From the NCBI RefSeq assembly GCF_013280595.1, contig NZ_JAAATY010000018.1, forward strand, positions 62,001-126,000: 64,000 bases of DNA. The letters are read 5' to 3'. The stretch is from Kibdelosporangium persicum (GTDB lineage Bacteria > Actinomycetota > Actinomycetes > Mycobacteriales > Pseudonocardiaceae). Shown here piece after piece: positions 9,069 to 47,597 of this stretch. Below the pieces are notes generated by a model. That model had not been told where the DNA came from. It did no database searches and saw only the letters and a program-made list of their open reading frames with translations. The position numbers were made by a program, and so were the translations under genes. Numbering within the stretch: position 1 is the first letter of the stretch; every line of letters begins with the position of its first letter.

Positions 9069-12000
9069 ATGATGGTCAGCGTGGACGAACTCGACCTCTT
9101 CTCACCCGCGACCCGTGACTGGTTCGCCGGAGCCTTCGCGGCCCCGACCCAGGCGCAGGCCGGGGCGTGGCGCGCGGCCGCCGCGGGTGAGCACGCGCTG
9201 GTCGTGGCGCCCACCGGATCAGGCAAGACGCTCGCCGCGTTCCTCTGGGGCCTCGACCGGCTGGCCACCCAGCCCGCCCCCAGCGAGCCGAAACACCGCT
9301 GCCGGGTCCTGTACATCTCCCCGCTCAAGGCGCTCGCGGTGGATGTCGAGCGCAACCTGCGGGCCCCGCTTGCCGGTATCCGGCAGGCCGCGCACCGGCT
9401 GGGACTGACTCCTCCGGCCATCTCGGTCGGCATGCGCACCGGCGACACCCCGGCCGACGAACGCCGGTCGTTCGCCAGAACCCCGCCGGACATCCTGGTG
9501 ACCACGCCCGAATCCCTCTTCCTGCTGCTGACGTCGGCGGCGCGGGAATCGCTCAAGGGCATCGAGACTGTGATCGTCGACGAGGTGCACGCGGTGACCG
9601 GCACCAAACGCGGCGCGCACATGGCGTTGTCACTGGAACGGCTGGACGCGCTTTTGCCCGAACCGGCGCAGCGGATCGGGCTCTCGGCCACTGTGCGTCC
9701 CATCGAGGAGGTCAGTGCTTTCCTCGCGGGCGGCCGCCCGGTCACCGTCGTCCAGCCGAAGACGGCCAAGACCGTGGAGGTCACCGTCCAGGTCCCGGTC
9801 GAGGACATGGCCAACATCGACACCCCTCAGGCGCCCGGCCCCACCGGGGAGCTCCCGGTCGAGGACGGGATCGGCACGCTCGAGGAGATCGGCGCGCCCC
9901 GGCGGCCGTCGATCTGGCCCGCGGTCGAGGAACGCATCCTCAGCCTGGTGCGTGGGCACCGCTCGACGATCGTGTTCGCCAATTCCCGGCGGCTCGCTGA
10001 ACGGCTCACCGCAAGACTCAACGAGCTCGCAGAAGAACAGCCCTGGGAACTGGACCGCTTCCCAGCCGAAGCGATCGGTCAGTCCGGGTACTCCGGCGGC
10101 GCCTCGCCGGTGATCGCCCGGGCGCACCACGGTTCGATGGCGCGCGAACAGCGCACCGTCGTGGAGGAGGAGCTGAAGTCCGGCCGGCTCCCGTGCGTCG
10201 TCGCGACGTCCTCGCTGGAACTCGGGATCGACATGGGCGCCGTCGATCTCGTCGTCCAGGTCGAGGCGCCGCCGACGGTCGCGTCCGGCCTGCAACGCGT
10301 CGGCCGGGCCGGGCATCACGTGGGCGCGGTGTCCCGAGGCGTGATGTTCCCCAAGTTCCGTGGCGACCTGGTGTCGTGCGCGGTGGTCGCGGAACGCATG
10401 CGCGACGGGGCGATCGAGGCGCTGCGATATCCCCGCAACCCGTTGGACGTACTGGCGCAGCACATCGTGGCGATGGTCGCACTCGAAGCATGGACCATCG
10501 ACGAGCTGTCCACAGTGGTCCGGCGGGCCGCGAACTTCGCGTCGTTGCCGCAGTCCGCTCTGGAGTCCGTGCTGGACATGCTGTCCGGGCGGTATCCCAG
10601 CGAGGAGTTCGGCGAACTGCGGCCACGGGTGACGTGGGACAGGATCACCGGCGAGTTGCGCGGCCGTCCGGGCGCGCAGCGGCTGGCGGTCACGTCCGGC
10701 GGCACCATTCCCGACCGGGGGCTGTTCACCGTGATGACCCCGCCCAGTGAAGGGCGTGCGGGGTCACGGGTCGGCGAACTGGACGAGGAGATGGTCTACG
10801 AGTCCAGAGTCGGCGACACCTTCCTGCTCGGCACGTCGGCGTGGCGTGTCGAGGACATCACCCACGACCGGGTGATCGTGCTGCCCGCACCGGGGCAGCC
10901 TGCCCGGATGCCGTTCTGGAAGGGTGACGCACCCGGGCGTCCCTTGGAACTCGGCCGTGCGATGGGAAAGTTCCTGCGCGAACTGTCCACATTGGAGGAC
11001 GCCAGGGCCAGGGAACGGGCCGCTTCGGCAGGTCTGGACGAATGGGCGACGGACAACCTGCTGGCCTACCTCGCCGAGCAGAAACAAGCCACGAGACACG
11101 TGCCGGACGACCGGACGGTGCTGGTCGAGCGGTTCCGGGACGAGCTCGGCGACTGGCGGCTGGTCGTGCACTCGCCGTTCGGCGCACGCGTCAACGCACC
11201 ATGGGCGTTGGCCATCGCCGCGCGGCTGCGCGAGCAACGCGGTATCGACGCCCAGATGGCGCACTCCGACGACGGGATCGTCATGCGGCTGCCGGACGCC
11301 GTGGACGACTCGGGCGCCGAAGTCACCGCGACAGCCGAGGACGTTCTGCTCGATCCGGAGGAGATCGAGCAGATCGTGGTGGCCGAGGTGGGTGGTTCGG
11401 CGTTGTTCGCGGCCCGGTTCCGCGAATGCGCCGCCCGCTCGCTCCTGCTGCCCCGAAGGGATCCACGACGGCGCAGTCCGCTGTGGCAACAGCGCCAGCG
11501 CGCGGCGCAGTTGCTGTCGGTGGCGGCGAAGTACGAGCGGTTCCCGGTGGTGCTGGAGGCCATGCGGGAGTGCCTGCAGGACGTGTACGACCTGAACGGC
11601 TTGCGTGAGCTGATGACGGACGTGCGCTCCCGGCGGGTGCGTGTGGTCGATGTGGAGACGCCGACACCGTCCCCCTTCGCCCGCAGCCTGCTGTTCGGCT
11701 ACGTGGGGATGTTCCTGTACGAGACGGACACGCCACTGGCCGAGCGGCGTGCCGCGGCCTTGTCGCTGGACTCGTCCCTGCTGGCGGAGCTGCTCGGCTC
11801 CGAGGCGATCCGGGAACTGCTGGACGCCGATGTGGTGGCCGAGGTCGAGCGGTCACTGCAACGGCTCGATCCGGACAGGCACGCCAGGCACGCGGAGGAC
11901 GCGTCCGACCTCCTGCGTTTCCTCGGTGACCTGACCGAACAAGAAGCCGCCGCGCGCGGCATCAGGCCGGAGTGGCTGGCCGAGCTGATCGCCCAGCGCC

Positions 12001-13649
12001 GGGTGATCAGGGTGCGGATCGCCGGTGAAACCCGCAACGTCGGCATCGAGGACGCCGGCCGGATGCGGGACGCACTCGGGGTGGCGCTGCCGGTCGGTGT
12101 GCCGGAGGCGTTCACCGAGCCGGTCGCCGACCCACTCGGTGATCTGCTCGCCCGTTACGCCCGCACGCACGGCCCGTTCCCCGCGGCGGAGGCCGCGGCC
12201 AGGTTCGGGCTGGGCACAGCGGTGGTGACCGGTGTGCTGGACCGGCTGGCCGGTACCGGGCGGCTCGTCCGTGGCGAGCTGCGGCCGGGCGGCACACACA
12301 CCGAATACTGCGACGCCGAGGTGTTGCGTCGCCTGCGCCGAGCTTCGTTGGCGCGGCTCAGGGCTGAGGTGGAGCCGGTCGAGCAGGCCGCGCTCGGGCG
12401 ATTTCTCCCCAGTTGGCACGGTGTGGGGAAGCGTTTGCGCACCGCGCCGACAGCGGACGACGTGTTGTCCGTGGTGGAACAGCTCGCGGGGACTCCCCTC
12501 CCGGCGAGCGCGCTCGAGTCGTTGATCCTGCCGGCACGGCTGCCAGGCTTCTCCCCTGCTCTGCTCGACGAGCTCACCGCGGCGGGCGAGGTCACCTGGT
12601 GTGGCAGTGGTTCGCTGGCCGGGGGCGATGGCTGGATCGCCCTCGCGCCCGCGGACGTCGCCGACCTGTTGCTGCCGGACGTGGAGGAGAACGTCCCGGA
12701 CTCCCCCGTGCACCAGGCCATCCTGTCCGCGTTGGACGGTGGTGCGCTGTTCTTCAGGCAACTGGCCGACCGGATCGGCTCCACCGACGACCAAGAGGTG
12801 GTCACCGCCCTCTGGGACTTGGTGTGGGCCGGTCTGGTCACCAACGACACACTCAACCCGTTGCGCGCCTTGGTGTCCGGCCGTGGAGCAACCCACAAGC
12901 CACGCCGCTCGGCACCGCGCGGCCGCTACGCCCGCATCCGAGCCCAACGCCCGGCGATGCCCAGCAGGACCGGCCCGCCCACGGTCGGCGGCCGCTGGTC
13001 CCTGGCGGTCGAACGGGAGTCCGACCCCACCCGCCGCGCCCATGCCCGCGCCGAGGCTTTCCTTGAACGCCATGGTGTGCTCACTCGCGGCGCACTGGAC
13101 ACCGAACGCGTCACGGGCGGCTTCAGCGGCGTGTACAAGGTTTTGCGCGCGATGGAGGAATCCGGCCAGGTCATCCGCGGCTACGTGGTCGAGGGGCTCG
13201 GCGCGGCCCAGTTCGCCGCCCGCGGCGCCGTCGACCGTCTCCGTGCCCTGTCCCGCACAGCAGGCCGCGACCCCGAGCCCGTCGGTGCGACAGTGCTCGC
13301 CGCCGCCGACCCCGCCCAGCCTTATGGCGCGGCCCTTCCGTGGCCGGCCACCGTCGGCGAGACAAAGCACCGCCCGGCCCGCAAAGCCGGCGCACTGGCG
13401 GTTCTCGTCGACGGCGAACCGGCCCTCTACGTCGAACGAGGCGGAAAGTCCCTGCTGTCCTTCACCGAGGACGACAAGGCACTGCGCTCCGCCGCCGAAG
13501 CCCTCTCCCGCGCCGTCCGCGAGGGCTGGCTAGGTCAGCTCGCCGTCCAACGCACCGACGGCGACATCGCCCTCACGTCCCACCTCGCCGACATCCTCCG
13601 CGACGCCGGCTTCCGCGCCACCCCCAAAGGCCTCCGCCTCCGCGCCTGA
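9069..13649 (+). CDS. lhr: Lhr-type large superfamily 2 ATP-dependent DNA helicase
   Basis: This 1526-aa protein has the full Lhr layout. The helicase core has Walker A APTGSGKT (about residue 47-54), the DEVH box in IVDEVHAV (about 171), SATV, and the helicase C-terminal domain with SLELGID and QRVGRAGH. A winged-helix/Lhr core follows, then the long C-terminal extension seen in bacterial Lhr. The mycobacterial homologue is a 3'-5' translocating DNA/RNA-DNA helicase induced by DNA damage. Start could be ATG 9069 or GTG 9081; a weak CATGAT lies 7 nt before 9081. It stands alone, and the 22-bp repeat array begins at its stop. Confidence 0.95.
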   Translation: MMVSVDELDLFSPATRDWFAGAFAAPTQAQAGAWRAAAAGEHALVVAPTGSGKTLAAFLWGLDRLATQPAPSEPKHRCRVLYISPLKALAVDVERNLRAPLAGIRQAAHRLGLTPPAISVGMRTGDTPADERRSFARTPPDILVTTPESLFLLLTSAARESLKGIETVIVDEVHAVTGTKRGAHMALSLERLDALLPEPAQRIGLSATVRPIEEVSAFLAGGRPVTVVQPKTAKTVEVTVQVPVEDMANIDTPQAPGPTGELPVEDGIGTLEEIGAPRRPSIWPAVEERILSLVRGHRSTIVFANSRRLAERLTARLNELAEEQPWELDRFPAEAIGQSGYSGGASPVIARAHHGSMAREQRTVVEEELKSGRLPCVVATSSLELGIDMGAVDLVVQVEAPPTVASGLQRVGRAGHHVGAVSRGVMFPKFRGDLVSCAVVAERMRDGAIEALRYPRNPLDVLAQHIVAMVALEAWTIDELSTVVRRAANFASLPQSALESVLDMLSGRYPSEEFGELRPRVTWDRITGELRGRPGAQRLAVTSGGTIPDRGLFTVMTPPSEGRAGSRVGELDEEMVYESRVGDTFLLGTSAWRVEDITHDRVIVLPAPGQPARMPFWKGDAPGRPLELGRAMGKFLRELSTLEDARARERAASAGLDEWATDNLLAYLAEQKQATRHVPDDRTVLVERFRDELGDWRLVVHSPFGARVNAPWALAIAARLREQRGIDAQMAHSDDGIVMRLPDAVDDSGAEVTATAEDVLLDPEEIEQIVVAEVGGSALFAARFRECAARSLLLPRRDPRRRSPLWQQRQRAAQLLSVAAKYERFPVVLEAMRECLQDVYDLNGLRELMTDVRSRRVRVVDVETPTPSPFARSLLFGYVGMFLYETDTPLAERRAAALSLDSSLLAELLGSEAIRELLDADVVAEVERSLQRLDPDRHARHAEDASDLLRFLGDLTEQEAAARGIRPEWLAELIAQRRVIRVRIAGETRNVGIEDAGRMRDALGVALPVGVPEAFTEPVADPLGDLLARYARTHGPFPAAEAAARFGLGTAVVTGVLDRLAGTGRLVRGELRPGGTHTEYCDAEVLRRLRRASLARLRAEVEPVEQAALGRFLPSWHGVGKRLRTAPTADDVLSVVEQLAGTPLPASALESLILPARLPGFSPALLDELTAAGEVTWCGSGSLAGGDGWIALAPADVADLLLPDVEENVPDSPVHQAILSALDGGALFFRQLADRIGSTDDQEVVTALWDLVWAGLVTNDTLNPLRALVSGRGATHKPRRSAPRGRYARIRAQRPAMPSRTGPPTVGGRWSLAVERESDPTRRAHARAEAFLERHGVLTRGALDTERVTGGFSGVYKVLRAMEESGQVIRGYVVEGLGAAQFAARGAVDRLRALSRTAGRDPEPVGATVLAAADPAQPYGAALPWPATVGETKHRPARKAGALAVLVDGEPALYVERGGKSLLSFTEDDKALRSAAEALSRAVREGWLGQLAVQRTDGDIALTSHLADILRDAGFRATPKGLRLRA

Positions 13650-13903
13650 CCCCGGCGTGTCCACCATTCCGACACCCCGAAATACACATTCCGGCACCCA
13701 GAAATGACCGTTCCGGCACAGTGAAATCCCTAGCCGGCGGCTGAAAGCCGGGCACGGCGGACTCACTGTGCCGGAAGGCGAAACTCGAGGTGCCGCAACG
13801 TGCATCTCGGGGTGCAGGAACGTGCATCTCACTGTGCCGGAAGGCGAAACTCGGGGTGCTGGAACGTGCAACTCGGGGTGCTGGAAAGGTGGACACGGCG
13901 GGG
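13650..13903. repeat. Inverted array of nine 22-bp tandem units
   Basis: The gap between the helicase and the SRPBCC gene is filled by nine 22-bp units: three in minus orientation (13660-13681, 13682-13703, 13704-13725), a 36-bp centre (13726-13761) with a CCGGC/GCCGG hairpin, and six in plus orientation (13762-13893). The core is GTGC(C)GGAA, often followed by CGTGCA. Units 13762-13783 and 13828-13849 are identical. Both outer ends share GGTGGACACG then a G-run, so the array is bounded symmetrically. The innermost units can form a long stem (TTCCGGCACAGTGA / TCACTGTGCCGGAA). Confidence 0.85.
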
Positions 13904-13943: not shown

Positions 13944-14420
13944 TCACCTGTTCGCGGTGGTGAGTTCCTCGAGACGGTCCATCGAGTCGCGGATGCCGTG
14001 TTCCATCCCGGACGCCACGGCGGCGTCACGGCCTTCGACCGACGGGTACACCGAATGGGTGTGCAGGCGGGTCCGCCCGCCGGGCAGCTCCGTCAGCGTC
14101 ATCGTCTCGATGGCGACCTGGTGCGGAACGCCTTCGAACTCGAAGGTCTGGATGACCATCTCGTTCGGCACGACCGTGTGGAAGACGCCGCGGAAGGCGT
14201 ACTCGCCGTTGTCGTCGCGGTGGAGGTAGCGATAGCTGCCGCCGGGCCGGGCGTCGTAGTCGATCACCTCGATCTGCACGTCGCGTGGCCCCAGCCACTG
14301 CCCGACCAGGTCGGGATCGGTCTGCGCCCGGTAGAGCCGCGCGGGCGTCGCGTCGAACTCCCGCACGACGTCGATGAACGGCGTGCCGGGCTGGGCGGTG
14401 ATGGTGGTCGGGTTGGTCAT
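13944..14420 (-). CDS. SRPBCC/AHSA1-domain protein
   Basis: This 158-aa START-like protein of the AHSA1 group has FIDVVREFDATPARLYRAQ at the N-terminal strand-helix, QWLGPRDVQIEV, YRYLHRD, FRGVFHTV and a C-terminal helix (GMEHGIRDSMDRLEELT). Genes of this type next to an ArsR repressor are very common in actinobacteria. The ligand is unknown. The ATG at 14420 overlaps the stop of the ArsR gene (ATGA), so the two are co-translated, and the longer frame upstream is not used. Confidence 0.9.
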   Translation of the reverse strand: MTNPTTITAQPGTPFIDVVREFDATPARLYRAQTDPDLVGQWLGPRDVQIEVIDYDARPGGSYRYLHRDDNGEYAFRGVFHTVVPNEMVIQTFEFEGVPHQVAIETMTLTELPGGRTRLHTHSVYPSVEGRDAAVASGMEHGIRDSMDRLEELTTANR

Positions 14421-14761
14421 TTCTCCTGCTCCTTCATCTGTTCCAGGACGGTGTCCAGTTGCCGGAACCGGCTTTCGGTGGCCAGCCGGTACTCGTCGAT
14501 CCAGCTGGTCAGCTCCTCCAGCGCGGCCGCGTTGAGGTGACACGGCCTGCGCTGCGCGTCCCGGCTGCGGGTGATCAAACCGGCCGCTTCGAGCACCTGG
14601 ATGTGCCGGGACACCGCCTGTTTGGTGATCGGGAACGGCTCCGCGAGCTCGTTGAGCGTCGCGTCGCCCCGTGAGAGGCGCGCGATCAGCCCACGCCGGA
14701 TCGGGTCGCCCAGCGCGGTGAACGCCCGGTCAAGACGGTCGTCCAGGTCATCGTCGGCCAT
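14417..14761 (-). CDS. ArsR-family winged-helix repressor
   Basis: This protein of about 114 aa has the ArsR fold: ALGDPIRRGLIARLSRG, NELAEPFPITKQAVSRHIQV (recognition helix), LEAAGLITRSRDAQRRPCHL. No metal-binding Cys pair is present in the DNA-binding helix, so it belongs to the non-metal ArsR group that accompanies AHSA1/SRPBCC proteins. ATG 14761 is used; a TTG at 14770 is an alternative. It is the first gene of a two-gene operon and probably represses itself at the inverted repeat just upstream. Confidence 0.9.
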   Translation of the reverse strand: MADDDLDDRLDRAFTALGDPIRRGLIARLSRGDATLNELAEPFPITKQAVSRHIQVLEAAGLITRSRDAQRRPCHLNAAALEELTSWIDEYRLATESRFRQLDTVLEQMKEQEK

Positions 14762-39431: not shown

Positions 39432-41375
39432 GTGCAGGAAAGAGGCGGGCTTGGAATGGCGACGTTGCTCGAGCAGCGTTACCGGGTCGACGCGCCGCTG
39501 GCCCGCGGCGGTATGTCGGCTGTCTACCGTGGCATGGACACCCGGCTCGAGCGGCCGGTGGCGATCAAGGTGATGGATCACCGGTTCGCCGAGGACCGGT
39601 CGTTCGTCGACCGGTTCGAGCGCGAGGCGAGAGCCGCGGCGAGCCTGCACCACCCGAACGTGATCGCCGTGCACGACCAGGGCTTCGACGGGGACCACGT
39701 GTTCCTGGTGATGGAGCTGGTCGACGGCGGCACCTTGCGTGACCTGCTGACCGAGCGCGGACGGCTGACCGTGCCGCTGGCGTTGTCGGTGCTCGAACCG
39801 GTGCTGTCGGCGCTGGCCGCGGCGCACCAGAACGGCCTGGTGCACCGGGACGTCAAGCCGGAGAACGTGCTGATCGGCAAGAACGGCGTGGTCAAGGTCG
39901 GCGACTTCGGCCTGGTCAAGGCCATGGCCAGCGGGAACAACACCAGCAACAGCGTCATCCTCGGCACGGTCGCGTACCTGTCGCCGGAGCAGGTGACCAC
40001 AGGCGCGACCACCGCCCGCGGCGACGTGTACTCCGCGGGCGTGCTGCTGTACGAGATGCTCACGGGCACGCCGCCGTACGTCGGCGACACGCCGCTGTCC
40101 GTGGCGTACCGGCACGTGAACGACGACGTGCCTCCGCCGAGCCTGTCCGCCCCCGGCATCCCGAAGGCGCTGGACGAGCTCGTACTGCGCGCGACCCGCC
40201 GTGACCCGATGGCCCGTCCGGCCGACGCAGGCGCGTTCCTGCACGAAGTCGAGCGCGTCCGGCACGCGATCGGCGCCCCGCTCGTGCCGATCCCCGCTTC
40301 GGCGCACGGCATGAAGACCATGCCGTCCGTGCCCGCCGACGCGACCGTCCAGACCGTGCCCGTCCAGGCGCCTCCTGCCGTCGCCAGCGTGTCCGGACCG
40401 CGAGGCACGCGGGCCATGCTGCGCACCGACCTGGACCGTGAGCCCCCGTCGACCGGCCCGCAACCGGTGGCCTCCCCGTCGTCGCCGAGGAAGCGCTTCC
40501 CCGTGCCGAAGTGGGGCATCGCCGCGGCCGTGCTGGCGGTCGTCGCGATCGTCGCCACGTTCCTGCTGACCAGCGGACCCGACCCGGTCGCCATCCCGAA
40601 CGTCGCGGGCAAGGACAAGGCCACCGCGGTCGCCGAGATCGAACAGGCCCAGCTCGTGCCGACGGTGCTCGAGTCCCGCAGCGACAAGGTCGACCGCAAC
40701 AAGGTGATCAGGACCGACCCGCCGACCGGCACGCTGCTGCCGGGCTCCGCGGTGAACGTGTACGTCTCGGCCGGCCCGCCGATCGTGCCCGAGGTCGAAC
40801 CCGGCGCCACGGTGCAGGCGGTCGAAGAGGCGCTGAAGAAGCAGGACCTGAAAGCACGCCTGGCGGCGGACGAGGACAGGTACGACAACAACGTGCCCCA
40901 GGGCGCCGTGCTGACCGTGTCCCCCAGCCCGGGAACGCAGCTCAAGCTCGGCGACTCGGTGACGTTGATCCTCAGCAAGGGTCCCGCGCCGTTGAAGCCG
41001 CTGCCGGACGTGCGCGGCAAAACCGAGGCCGAGGCCCGTCAGCTCGTCGAGGAGGCCGGGTACACGGCCACCGTCCGTGCCCAGTTCGACGAGCGGGTCG
41101 ACGGCGGACGGGTGATCTCCACCAGCCCCGAGGCCGGCGCCGTCGCCGAGGACAAGAAGGTCACGCTGCTCGTCTCGAACGCCGTCACGGTGCCCGACCT
41201 GCGCAACAAGCGGCTCAACGAGGCCAGGGACCAGCTCGACAAGCTCGGCCTGAAACTGGAGGTCGCCTTCGGCAACGACCGCGGCAACCGGCGGATCTTC
41301 GCCCAGGGCCCGAACGCCGGGGCCCGCGTGCAGAAGGGCTCGACCGTCCGCGTCGGCGTCGACTTCTTCGGCTGA
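39432..41375 (+). CDS. pknL: Serine/threonine kinase with PASTA repeats at the pknL locus
   Basis: This 647-aa membrane kinase has its kinase domain at residues about 10-280: glycine loop LARGGMSAVYRG, Lys46 in PVAIKVM, catalytic Asp140 in HRDVKPENVL, DFGLVKA and GTVAYLSPEQ. A Pro-rich linker follows, then one membrane helix (about 362-382), then four PASTA repeats (IPNVAGKDKATA, VPEVEPGATVQA, LPDVRGKTEAEA, VPDLRNKRLNEA) for muropeptide sensing. Mycobacterial PknL at this locus lacks PASTA, so this form looks like PknB/StkP. GTG 39432 is preferred over ATG 39456 because of the -10 box. Likely substrate: the divergent DNA-binding protein. Confidence 0.92.
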   Translation: MQERGGLGMATLLEQRYRVDAPLARGGMSAVYRGMDTRLERPVAIKVMDHRFAEDRSFVDRFEREARAAASLHHPNVIAVHDQGFDGDHVFLVMELVDGGTLRDLLTERGRLTVPLALSVLEPVLSALAAAHQNGLVHRDVKPENVLIGKNGVVKVGDFGLVKAMASGNNTSNSVILGTVAYLSPEQVTTGATTARGDVYSAGVLLYEMLTGTPPYVGDTPLSVAYRHVNDDVPPPSLSAPGIPKALDELVLRATRRDPMARPADAGAFLHEVERVRHAIGAPLVPIPASAHGMKTMPSVPADATVQTVPVQAPPAVASVSGPRGTRAMLRTDLDREPPSTGPQPVASPSSPRKRFPVPKWGIAAAVLAVVAIVATFLLTSGPDPVAIPNVAGKDKATAVAEIEQAQLVPTVLESRSDKVDRNKVIRTDPPTGTLLPGSAVNVYVSAGPPIVPEVEPGATVQAVEEALKKQDLKARLAADEDRYDNNVPQGAVLTVSPSPGTQLKLGDSVTLILSKGPAPLKPLPDVRGKTEAEARQLVEEAGYTATVRAQFDERVDGGRVISTSPEAGAVAEDKKVTLLVSNAVTVPDLRNKRLNEARDQLDKLGLKLEVAFGNDRGNRRIFAQGPNAGARVQKGSTVRVGVDFFG

Positions 41376-41379
41376 ACCA

Positions 41380-41427
41380 CCTCGTGAGTGGTTATCAGGG
41401 TTAGAACACCGATAACCACTCACGAGG
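41380..41427 (+). terminator. Perfect 17-bp hairpin, CTCGTGAGTG family, copy 2
   Basis: CCTCGTGAGTGGTTATC (41380-41396) pairs perfectly with GATAACCACTCACGAGG (41411-41427). The loop is AGGGTTAGAACACC and GGTTTTTA follows. It separates convergent pknL and aroG. The loop core GGGTTAGAACAC recurs in the copy at 59494. Confidence 0.85.
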
Positions 41428-41432
41428 GGTTT

Positions 41433-47496: not shown

Positions 47497-47519
47497 CGCC
47501 TCCCACCATCTGGGAGGCG
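47497..47519 (-). promoter_or_regulatory. RBS-masking hairpin of metH
   Basis: CGCCTCCCA and TGGGAGGCG form a perfect 9-bp stem around a 5-nt loop. Its 3' arm contains the metH ribosome-binding site. The 5' arm shares 47514-47519 with the riboswitch P1 stem, so the two structures exclude each other. Confidence 0.75.
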
Positions 47520-47585
47520 CCCTTGTTGACCTTCGTGCCAGGCCGAGCGTGGCGGACCTCCCCGGTCCGTTGCAGCGCCTCTCGG
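47514..47585 (-). ncRNA. S-adenosylhomocysteine (SAH) riboswitch
   Basis: The metH leader matches the SAH riboswitch: 5' CCGAGAGGCGCTGCAAC, a GGACC/GGTCC hairpin, then GCCACGCTCGG and finally GGGCGCCTC. P1 pairs GAGGCGC with GCGCCTC, and CCGAG with CTCGG makes the pseudoknot. Known SAH riboswitches sit upstream of metH and ahcY and turn expression on. Here ligand-stabilised P1 would consume the strand that otherwise masks the RBS. Confidence 0.85.
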
Positions 47586-47597
47586 CCTAGGCTTCGT

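Follow-up and report, generated by a model that had tools for sequence, protein, structure and literature searches.

The systems closest to the element described here are the REPs, which, according to the available text of PMC3733652, comprise hundreds of dispersed, mostly intergenic palindromes that are preferentially located near gene 3' ends, in convergent or co-directional contexts. The same text describes CGTC-tagged REPs, which are palindromic and have no dedicated transposase; its available parts do not mention Actinobacteria in connection with them.

The arrays of 22-bp units that we identified in Kibdelosporangium persicum resemble the REP/BIME/REPIN group in that they are also high-copy, dispersed, extragenic, palindromic and located near 3' ends. 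However, they consist of direct tandem repeats of 22 bp forming two outward arms, whereas a REP is a single hairpin of 20–40 bp. Moreover, the GTAG tag is absent (both ends carry CGTGTCCACC), PF01797 has no match in K. persicum, and some arrays are one-armed and lack a hairpin. They also differ from the CGTC-tagged REPs, whose tag is unpaired and present at one end, since the array ends read CGTG, are paired with the other end of the element and border tandem arms.

Two further systems deserve comparison. The arrays share with MITEs their small size, non-coding nature, sharp ends and terminal inverted repeats (CGTGTCCACC / GGTGGACACG), but have no target duplication and vary in the number of internal units. 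One-arm arrays resemble Rho-dependent terminators (rut) in placing C-rich, G-poor, unstructured RNA past a stop codon, whereas two-arm arrays are structured; to our knowledge, rut sites do not form sequence families that are dispersed and made up of exact tandem units. Because of the missing PF01797 match, GTAG or CGTC tag, target duplication and T-tract, and because of the tandem arms, we classify the array as a variant within the dispersed extragenic palindromic 3'-end repeats that lies outside any named family. A literature search, with subscription journals mostly outside its coverage, found no description of such an element in Kibdelosporangium or Pseudonocardiaceae.

Anatomy of the array behind lhr

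The analysed stretch of K. persicum DNA (64,000 nucleotides, hereafter the window) contains an inverted array of 22-bp units at positions 13650–13903, which occupies most of the gap between a convergent gene pair. The upstream gene, for which we retain the name lhr given in the earlier note (9069–13649, plus strand), ends directly at the left arm. The opposing gene (13944–14543, minus strand; AHSA1/SRPBCC-like by eye) has a stop codon separated by 50 nt from the right arm; its start was placed at 14420 by our codon-score caller and at 14543 in the list of open reading frames. Both stops (13649 and 13944) point into the gap.

The left arm (13660–13725, minus strand), which is C-rich on the lhr sense strand, contains three units, and the right arm (13762–13893, plus strand) contains six. 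They are separated by a 36-bp centre (13726–13761) with a small G+C-rich hairpin. This 3 + 36 bp + 6 layout, proposed in the earlier note, was confirmed by reading, by matrix scoring and by repeat finders. According to the 22-bp matrix, the reverse units begin at 13660, 13682 and 13704 and the forward units fill 13762–13893, all steps being exactly 22 bp. Tandem Repeats Finder reported the two arms with period 22 (scores 75 and 126), together with a period of 66 (score 215), the values 126 and 215 being the highest among 53 rows. The two identical units that had been noticed are units 1 and 4 of the right arm (CTCACTGTGCCGGAAGGCGAAA at 13762 and again at 13828), and the similar closing sequences are CCCCGGCGTGTCCACC and GGTGGACACGGCGGGG. 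Within these, the left end CGTGTCCACC lies at 13656–13665 (its TCCACC is also the start of the first unit) and the right end GGTGGACACG at 13888–13897.

The array had been described as symmetric. The arms are indeed inverted, but they are not mirror images, as they contain three and six units, respectively, and differ in their linkers. Nor does the unit length equal two helical turns, as had been stated: two turns of B-DNA correspond to about 21 bp, which 22 bp slightly exceeds. A coding repeat was rejected, since 22 is not a multiple of 3 and the codon-score caller accepts no open reading frame across the array. A CRISPR array was also rejected, in agreement with the earlier note, as the 22-bp units abut and there are no unique spacers between them.

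An inverted-repeat search defined arms of 78 nt (13650–13727 / 13826–13903) with 78% complementarity. The predicted RNA folds were far more stable than those of shuffled sequences (z −8.6 and −10.4 on the two strands; in neither case did any of 100 shuffles reach so low a value). Despite this strong hairpin, the array is not intrinsic-terminator-like: one T-tailed site was found between 13000 and 15000, against 0.8 expected. Rfam contained no known family matching the array; the sole Rfam match of the window was a SAH riboswitch at 47508–47589 on the minus strand (RF01057, 46.7 bits).

Family size and distribution

The end motif GTGTCCACCNTTCCGGCAC occurs 237 times in the K. persicum genome with at most one mismatch and 311 times with two mismatches, as against 0 and 1 occurrences, respectively, of the reversed pattern. 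BLAST of the lhr array against its own genome gave at least 117 matches in at least 40 places (the best 40 of 134 candidates). The earlier suggestion of a dispersed REP-like repeat family was therefore upheld by genome-wide searches with both the end motif and the array.

The array loci comprised 39 plus 35 further K. persicum loci, four longer stretches that span known arrays, as well as 20 loci from genome G004. This sample is not random: 40 places are those that match the lhr array best, and the remainder are exact matches to the end motif or the unit. Using a 22-bp unit matrix trained on the first 39 further K. persicum loci, we found 557 units in 97 arrays of the window and the sampled K. 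persicum and G004 loci. Same-arm units are spaced by exactly 22 bp in 385 of 404 cases (and by 44 bp in eight), so the phase seen behind lhr is kept elsewhere, as the earlier note had anticipated. Two arms were present in 56 of the 97 arrays, with a centre of 26–29 bp in 29 of them, and the reverse units always come first, no forward unit preceding a reverse one in any array examined. The unit consensus, built from 72 unit pairs, is CTCGGGGTGCCGGAAnGGTGGACACGGGGTGCCGGAATGGTGGA, the core of which (GGTGCCGGAA) is far better conserved than the linkers. The consensus of 153 arm ends is CGTGTCCACC, and there is little conservation outside it.

The possibility of a mobile element with target duplication, raised in the earlier note, was not sustained: none of 58 two-arm arrays with intact ends is flanked by an exact duplication of at least 5 nt (flank matches of k = 5–9). 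The transposase search, performed with PF01797 only (RAYT, Y1 transposase), gave no match in K. persicum or in G007, the two genomes richest in copies. A RAYT-driven REP in K. persicum was accordingly rejected. Elsewhere, PF01797 was matched twice in G003 and once in G004 (both carriers of the arrays), and twice each in the motif-poor genomes G005 and G006.

Among eight Kibdelosporangium genomes, the end motif was found 339, 237, 173 and 99 times in four and 0–3 times in the other four; it was absent from 52 genomes of other genera included in the same search. In a 397-genome sample of the order, 1–3 matches were detected in 11 genomes besides K. persicum. This probe, which pointed to one genus, proved too narrow, and a unit profile (R1) reached diverged arrays in other genera. 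At E ≤0.001 it matched at least 18 of 150 genomes of the family, four of them Kibdelosporangium; outside this genus there were at least 29 matches in G029, at least 15 in G418, at least 8 in G398 and at least 1–2 in the others, all counts being lower bounds from the best 42 candidates per genome scored under strict filters. No match to R1 was obtained in 295 other genomes of a phylum sample, for which the best 21 candidates per genome were scored under strict filters.

Five of six loci from other genera have arms just past a called stop, with the C-rich strand as the sense strand. An inverted 22-bp array with the ends CGTGTCCCAC / GGGGGACACG lies between convergent genes in G398 (locus L304), units separate convergent genes in G418 (L302), and a run of 22-bp units TTCAGGCACCCCGTGTCGAACG follows a TAA in G029 (L303), also between convergent genes. 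In G445 (L300) units TTCCGGCACCGCGAGTCGCACC follow a TGA at the contig end, and in G440 (L301) two units precede the stop of one gene. The match in G027 (L306) falls within a script-called open frame.

At the lhr site itself, no such unit was found in six named relatives (L048–L053) or, with 1.5-kb flanks, in seven other genomes of the genus (L129–L135), and the array at this locus seems to be private to the K. persicum genome. The earlier note had treated relatives without the units as evidence against its reading; such absence was observed at this single locus, and the family nonetheless occupies many other sites in three of those genomes. One of the named relatives, L050 (JOAA01000010.1), is entered as Rhodococcus rhodnii NRRL B-16535; its lhr shares 94% identity with that of the window, and the record is probably a mislabelled Kibdelosporangium.

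Tandem arrays of period 21–28 with other sequences were observed within about 750 bases behind lhr at 12 of 80 other Pseudonocardiales loci (L048, L054, L057, L062, L066, L068, L073, L081, L087, L096, L105 and L110). The one in Amycolatopsis anabasis (L066) has 21-bp units and a similar design, and its match to R1 is weak (E 0.03). In G151, which represents another genus of the family, three copies of GTGTCGACCCTTCCGGCAC lie on three contigs.

Placement, strand composition and turnover

Genes around 98 arrays (76 from K. persicum and 22 from G004) were called with a home-made codon-score caller rather than an annotation pipeline. A stop codon is faced by 115 of the 155 arm ends and a start codon by 40. 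The arm-to-stop distance has a median of 8 nt and a mode of 5 nt (22 cases), and 85 of the 115 ends lie within 20 nt of the stop; in five, the called stop falls within the first unit. The start-facing ends are more distant (median 84.5 nt; 3 of 40 within 20 nt). The gaps holding the arrays are convergent in 48 cases, co-directional in 40 and divergent in 10, as against 15, 26 and 15, respectively, of the 56 gaps of the window (Fisher p 0.010 for the convergent excess and 0.012 for the divergent deficit); such p values over arrays overstate independence, because the arrays share ancestry. Among the 41 one-arm arrays of this set, a stop within 30 nt is faced by the outer end in 16, by the inner end in six and by both in one (p 0.04). 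The bias was weaker in 20 arrays of G003 and G007 picked as good matches: a stop lies opposite 18 of 33 ends, and convergent gaps account for 4 of the 14 two-arm arrays.

The sense strand of the 557 units contains 5244 C and 2644 G. The median of the best C-over-G skew is 0.37 in 101 long arms, compared with 0.02 at 21 gene ends elsewhere in the window, and a rut-like rule is satisfied by 97 of the 101 arms and 8 of the 21 gene ends; the counts over arms are not independent, because the strand bias belongs to one shared unit sequence. Predicted folding distinguished the two types of array. The very long hairpin envisaged in the earlier note can form in the two-arm copies (55 folded; median z −8.9, 54 below −3), whereas one-arm arrays folded in the sense direction showed no structure (median z 0.3 over 39 folds, with no value below −3).

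The idea that this hairpin is upheld by covariation was rejected. In the 56 two-arm loci, the innermost units match at 14.66 of 22 positions within a locus and at 15.26 after shuffling across loci, so that two arms from one locus are no better matched than two arms taken from separate loci. A slight gain within a locus is confined to the three variable positions u3–u5 (1.66 vs 1.42; 21 of 2000 shuffles did as well). In 42 of the 56 two-arm arrays of K. persicum and G004, the innermost linkers fall into different classes (GGTGGA/GGTCAA vs GTGCAT types; Fisher p 3e-4), which means that the cores pair and the linkers do not. In a second set (G003 and G007) they differ in 7 of 14 arrays, giving 49 of 70 for the two sets pooled (reached by 3 of 10,000 shuffles), and in all eight G003/G007 arrays at orthologous gaps, which are not independent of the first set. 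The difference at first looked like avoidance of perfect palindromes and is offered as a lead only.

Seven K. persicum arrays share their site with an orthologue in G004, and the number of units differs in several of them, e.g. 2+2 vs 4+2 (L036/L189) and 3+3 vs 2+1 (L040/L192). The pair L202/L169 was discarded, as only the array is in common. Adjacent units of the same arm are the most alike (17.2 of 22 positions, compared with 14.9 for units of opposite arms and 15.2 for random units), which indicates that the arms grow by tandem duplication, each independently. At one site, where K. persicum, G003 and G007 carry arrays, G004 retains only the end fragment GTGTCCGCCGG.

Ten convergent K. persicum arrays were compared with the orthologous gaps of up to seven genomes (63 comparisons, of which 24 were dropped as non-comparable). 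The 39 comparable gaps contain (i) an array in 14 cases, all in G003, G004 or G007, (ii) a CTCGTGAGTG palindrome in six, and (iii) another strong hairpin in six; eight are shorter than 30 bp, and five have neither array, palindrome, hairpin nor short gap. For example, the array near position 4000 of L182 is replaced by CTCGTGAGTG palindromes in G001, G002 and G007. These comparisons indicate that the array and unrelated palindromes swap places at convergent gene ends.

The latter palindromes are copies of a very uniform 46-bp sequence (CTCGTGAGTG..CACTCACGAG) and form another dispersed family, with a window copy at 41375–41432 in a convergent gap. Like the arrays, they lie right past the stops, in the same convergent gaps of orthologues, but each is a single near-perfect palindrome of unrelated sequence without tandem units. 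There are 307 copies in K. persicum and 301, 89, 86, 53, 12, 4 and 2 in seven other genomes of the genus (reversed-pattern control, 0). A genome-level trade-off between the two families was not seen among the eight genomes, K. persicum and G007 being rich in both. In G001, which has no intact end motif, the gap orthologous to that of L152 (L219) contains a degenerate array with the ends GTGTCCGCC; the family may therefore predate the four rich genomes and be decaying in the others.

Termination as a possible function, and rival explanations

How genes end in G+C-rich actinomycetes, in which T-tailed terminators are scarce, is poorly settled, and the arrays bear on this question. Our preferred, still tentative reading, to which we assign a probability of roughly 45%, sees in the array a dispersed, REP-like 3'-end element whose main role is to terminate or insulate transcription in both directions. 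In this reading, an arm is a run of 22-nt units set just past the stop codon of the incoming gene, so that the transcript passes the stop, about 5 nt, CGUGUCCACC and then the AUUCCGGCACCCCGAAAUGCAC-type repeats. The RNA of the arm is C-rich and G-poor, like the strands onto which Rho loads. If the opposite gene is faced by a second arm, the transcript also continues into the complement and can fold into a long imperfect hairpin. Arms gain and lose single 22-bp units, and these changes may tune the strength of the stop. The sequence comparisons establish the anatomy, the copy number, the position past stops, the sense-strand bias, the turnover of units and the replacement by other palindromes; termination itself, the involvement of Rho and the effect of unit number are inferred. 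We place a strand-specific, possibly Rho-assisted terminator first, because one-arm arrays are unfolded and the arms share their strand composition; the hairpin is seen as an addition in two-arm copies, because the one-arm arrays do not fold.

Several observations count in favour of termination: the stop-facing ends, the nearby stops found more often at the outer than at the inner end of one-arm arrays, the convergent excess, the direction kept in the diverged loci L300–L304, the C-richness of the sense strand together with the rut-like scores, the replacement by palindromes or hairpins at orthologous sites and the strong folding of two-arm copies. Against it stand the 40 of 155 ends that face a start, the arrays in 40 co-directional and 10 divergent gaps, the T-tract at chance level, the weaker bias in G003 and G007, the lack of arm covariation, and the eight orthologous convergent gaps of under 30 bp that hold no element at all.

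The close rival, which we regard as a serious possibility, is a selfish or neutral REP-like repeat, found behind stops because insertion elsewhere is selected against, and spreading by a transposase in trans, by gene conversion or by cruciform copying. It would account for end motifs by the hundreds in four of the eight genomes of the genus and 0–3 in the others, for the sharp CGTGTCCACC ends with little conserved outside, and for presence or absence at orthologous sites, including the end fragment left in G004. Placement alone cannot tell a terminator from a repeat that is simply tolerated, because REPs of other phyla occupy similar sites, according to the available text of PMC3733652. However, neither the target duplication (58 arrays) nor PF01797 (the two copy-richest genomes) was found, and diverged arrays from other genera retain the same orientation relative to stops, which is not required of a neutral repeat.

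The arrays might instead offer binding sites to a nucleoid or regulatory protein, one bound per unit at the core GGTGCCGGAA, for instance marking or insulating gene borders; the earlier note had suggested an iteron-like platform. The sequence features that suggest this are the core, which is better conserved than the linkers, and the 22-bp spacing in 385 of 404 cases. Constant spacing alone does not point to phased protein binding, though, because slippage or unequal crossing-over gives the same result, and it follows from tandem duplication; moreover, 22 bp drifts against the B-DNA turn across several units, and a binding site in double-stranded DNA would not be expected to have a strand direction tied to stops. 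We consider this explanation improbable. Least probable of all is an mRNA stabiliser or RNase processing site, in which the two-arm hairpin would protect or cut 3' ends without ending transcription: two-arm copies do fold very stably, and unpaired innermost linkers in 42 of 56 of them would split the duplex into short helices, but 41 of the 98 arrays are one-armed, none of the 39 folded is structured, and the linker difference failed to repeat in the second set (7 of 14).

A more far-reaching version of the terminator reading, which we consider rather doubtful, is that the arrays represent a Pseudonocardiaceae class of modular, copy-number-tuned terminators, in which every gene has its own sense-oriented arm of C-rich 22-nt loading sites a few nucleotides past the stop, the unit number acts as a rheostat, and short palindromes can substitute as bidirectional terminators at convergent pairs. 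Orthologous gene pairs with no array, few units, many units or another palindrome constitute natural test cases. If the arrays terminate transcription, they represent a novel type of insulator that is modular and bidirectional; if they do not, they are a large palindromic repeat family without a RAYT, spreading by some other way.

At one K. persicum locus (L156:3000–4130; contig C4, approximately 391037–392165), a left and a right arm flank a gene of about 900 bp, the C-terminal part of whose product is Vsr/DUF559-type nuclease-like by eye. This arrangement represents either an insertion into the centre of an array or two separate one-arm arrays.
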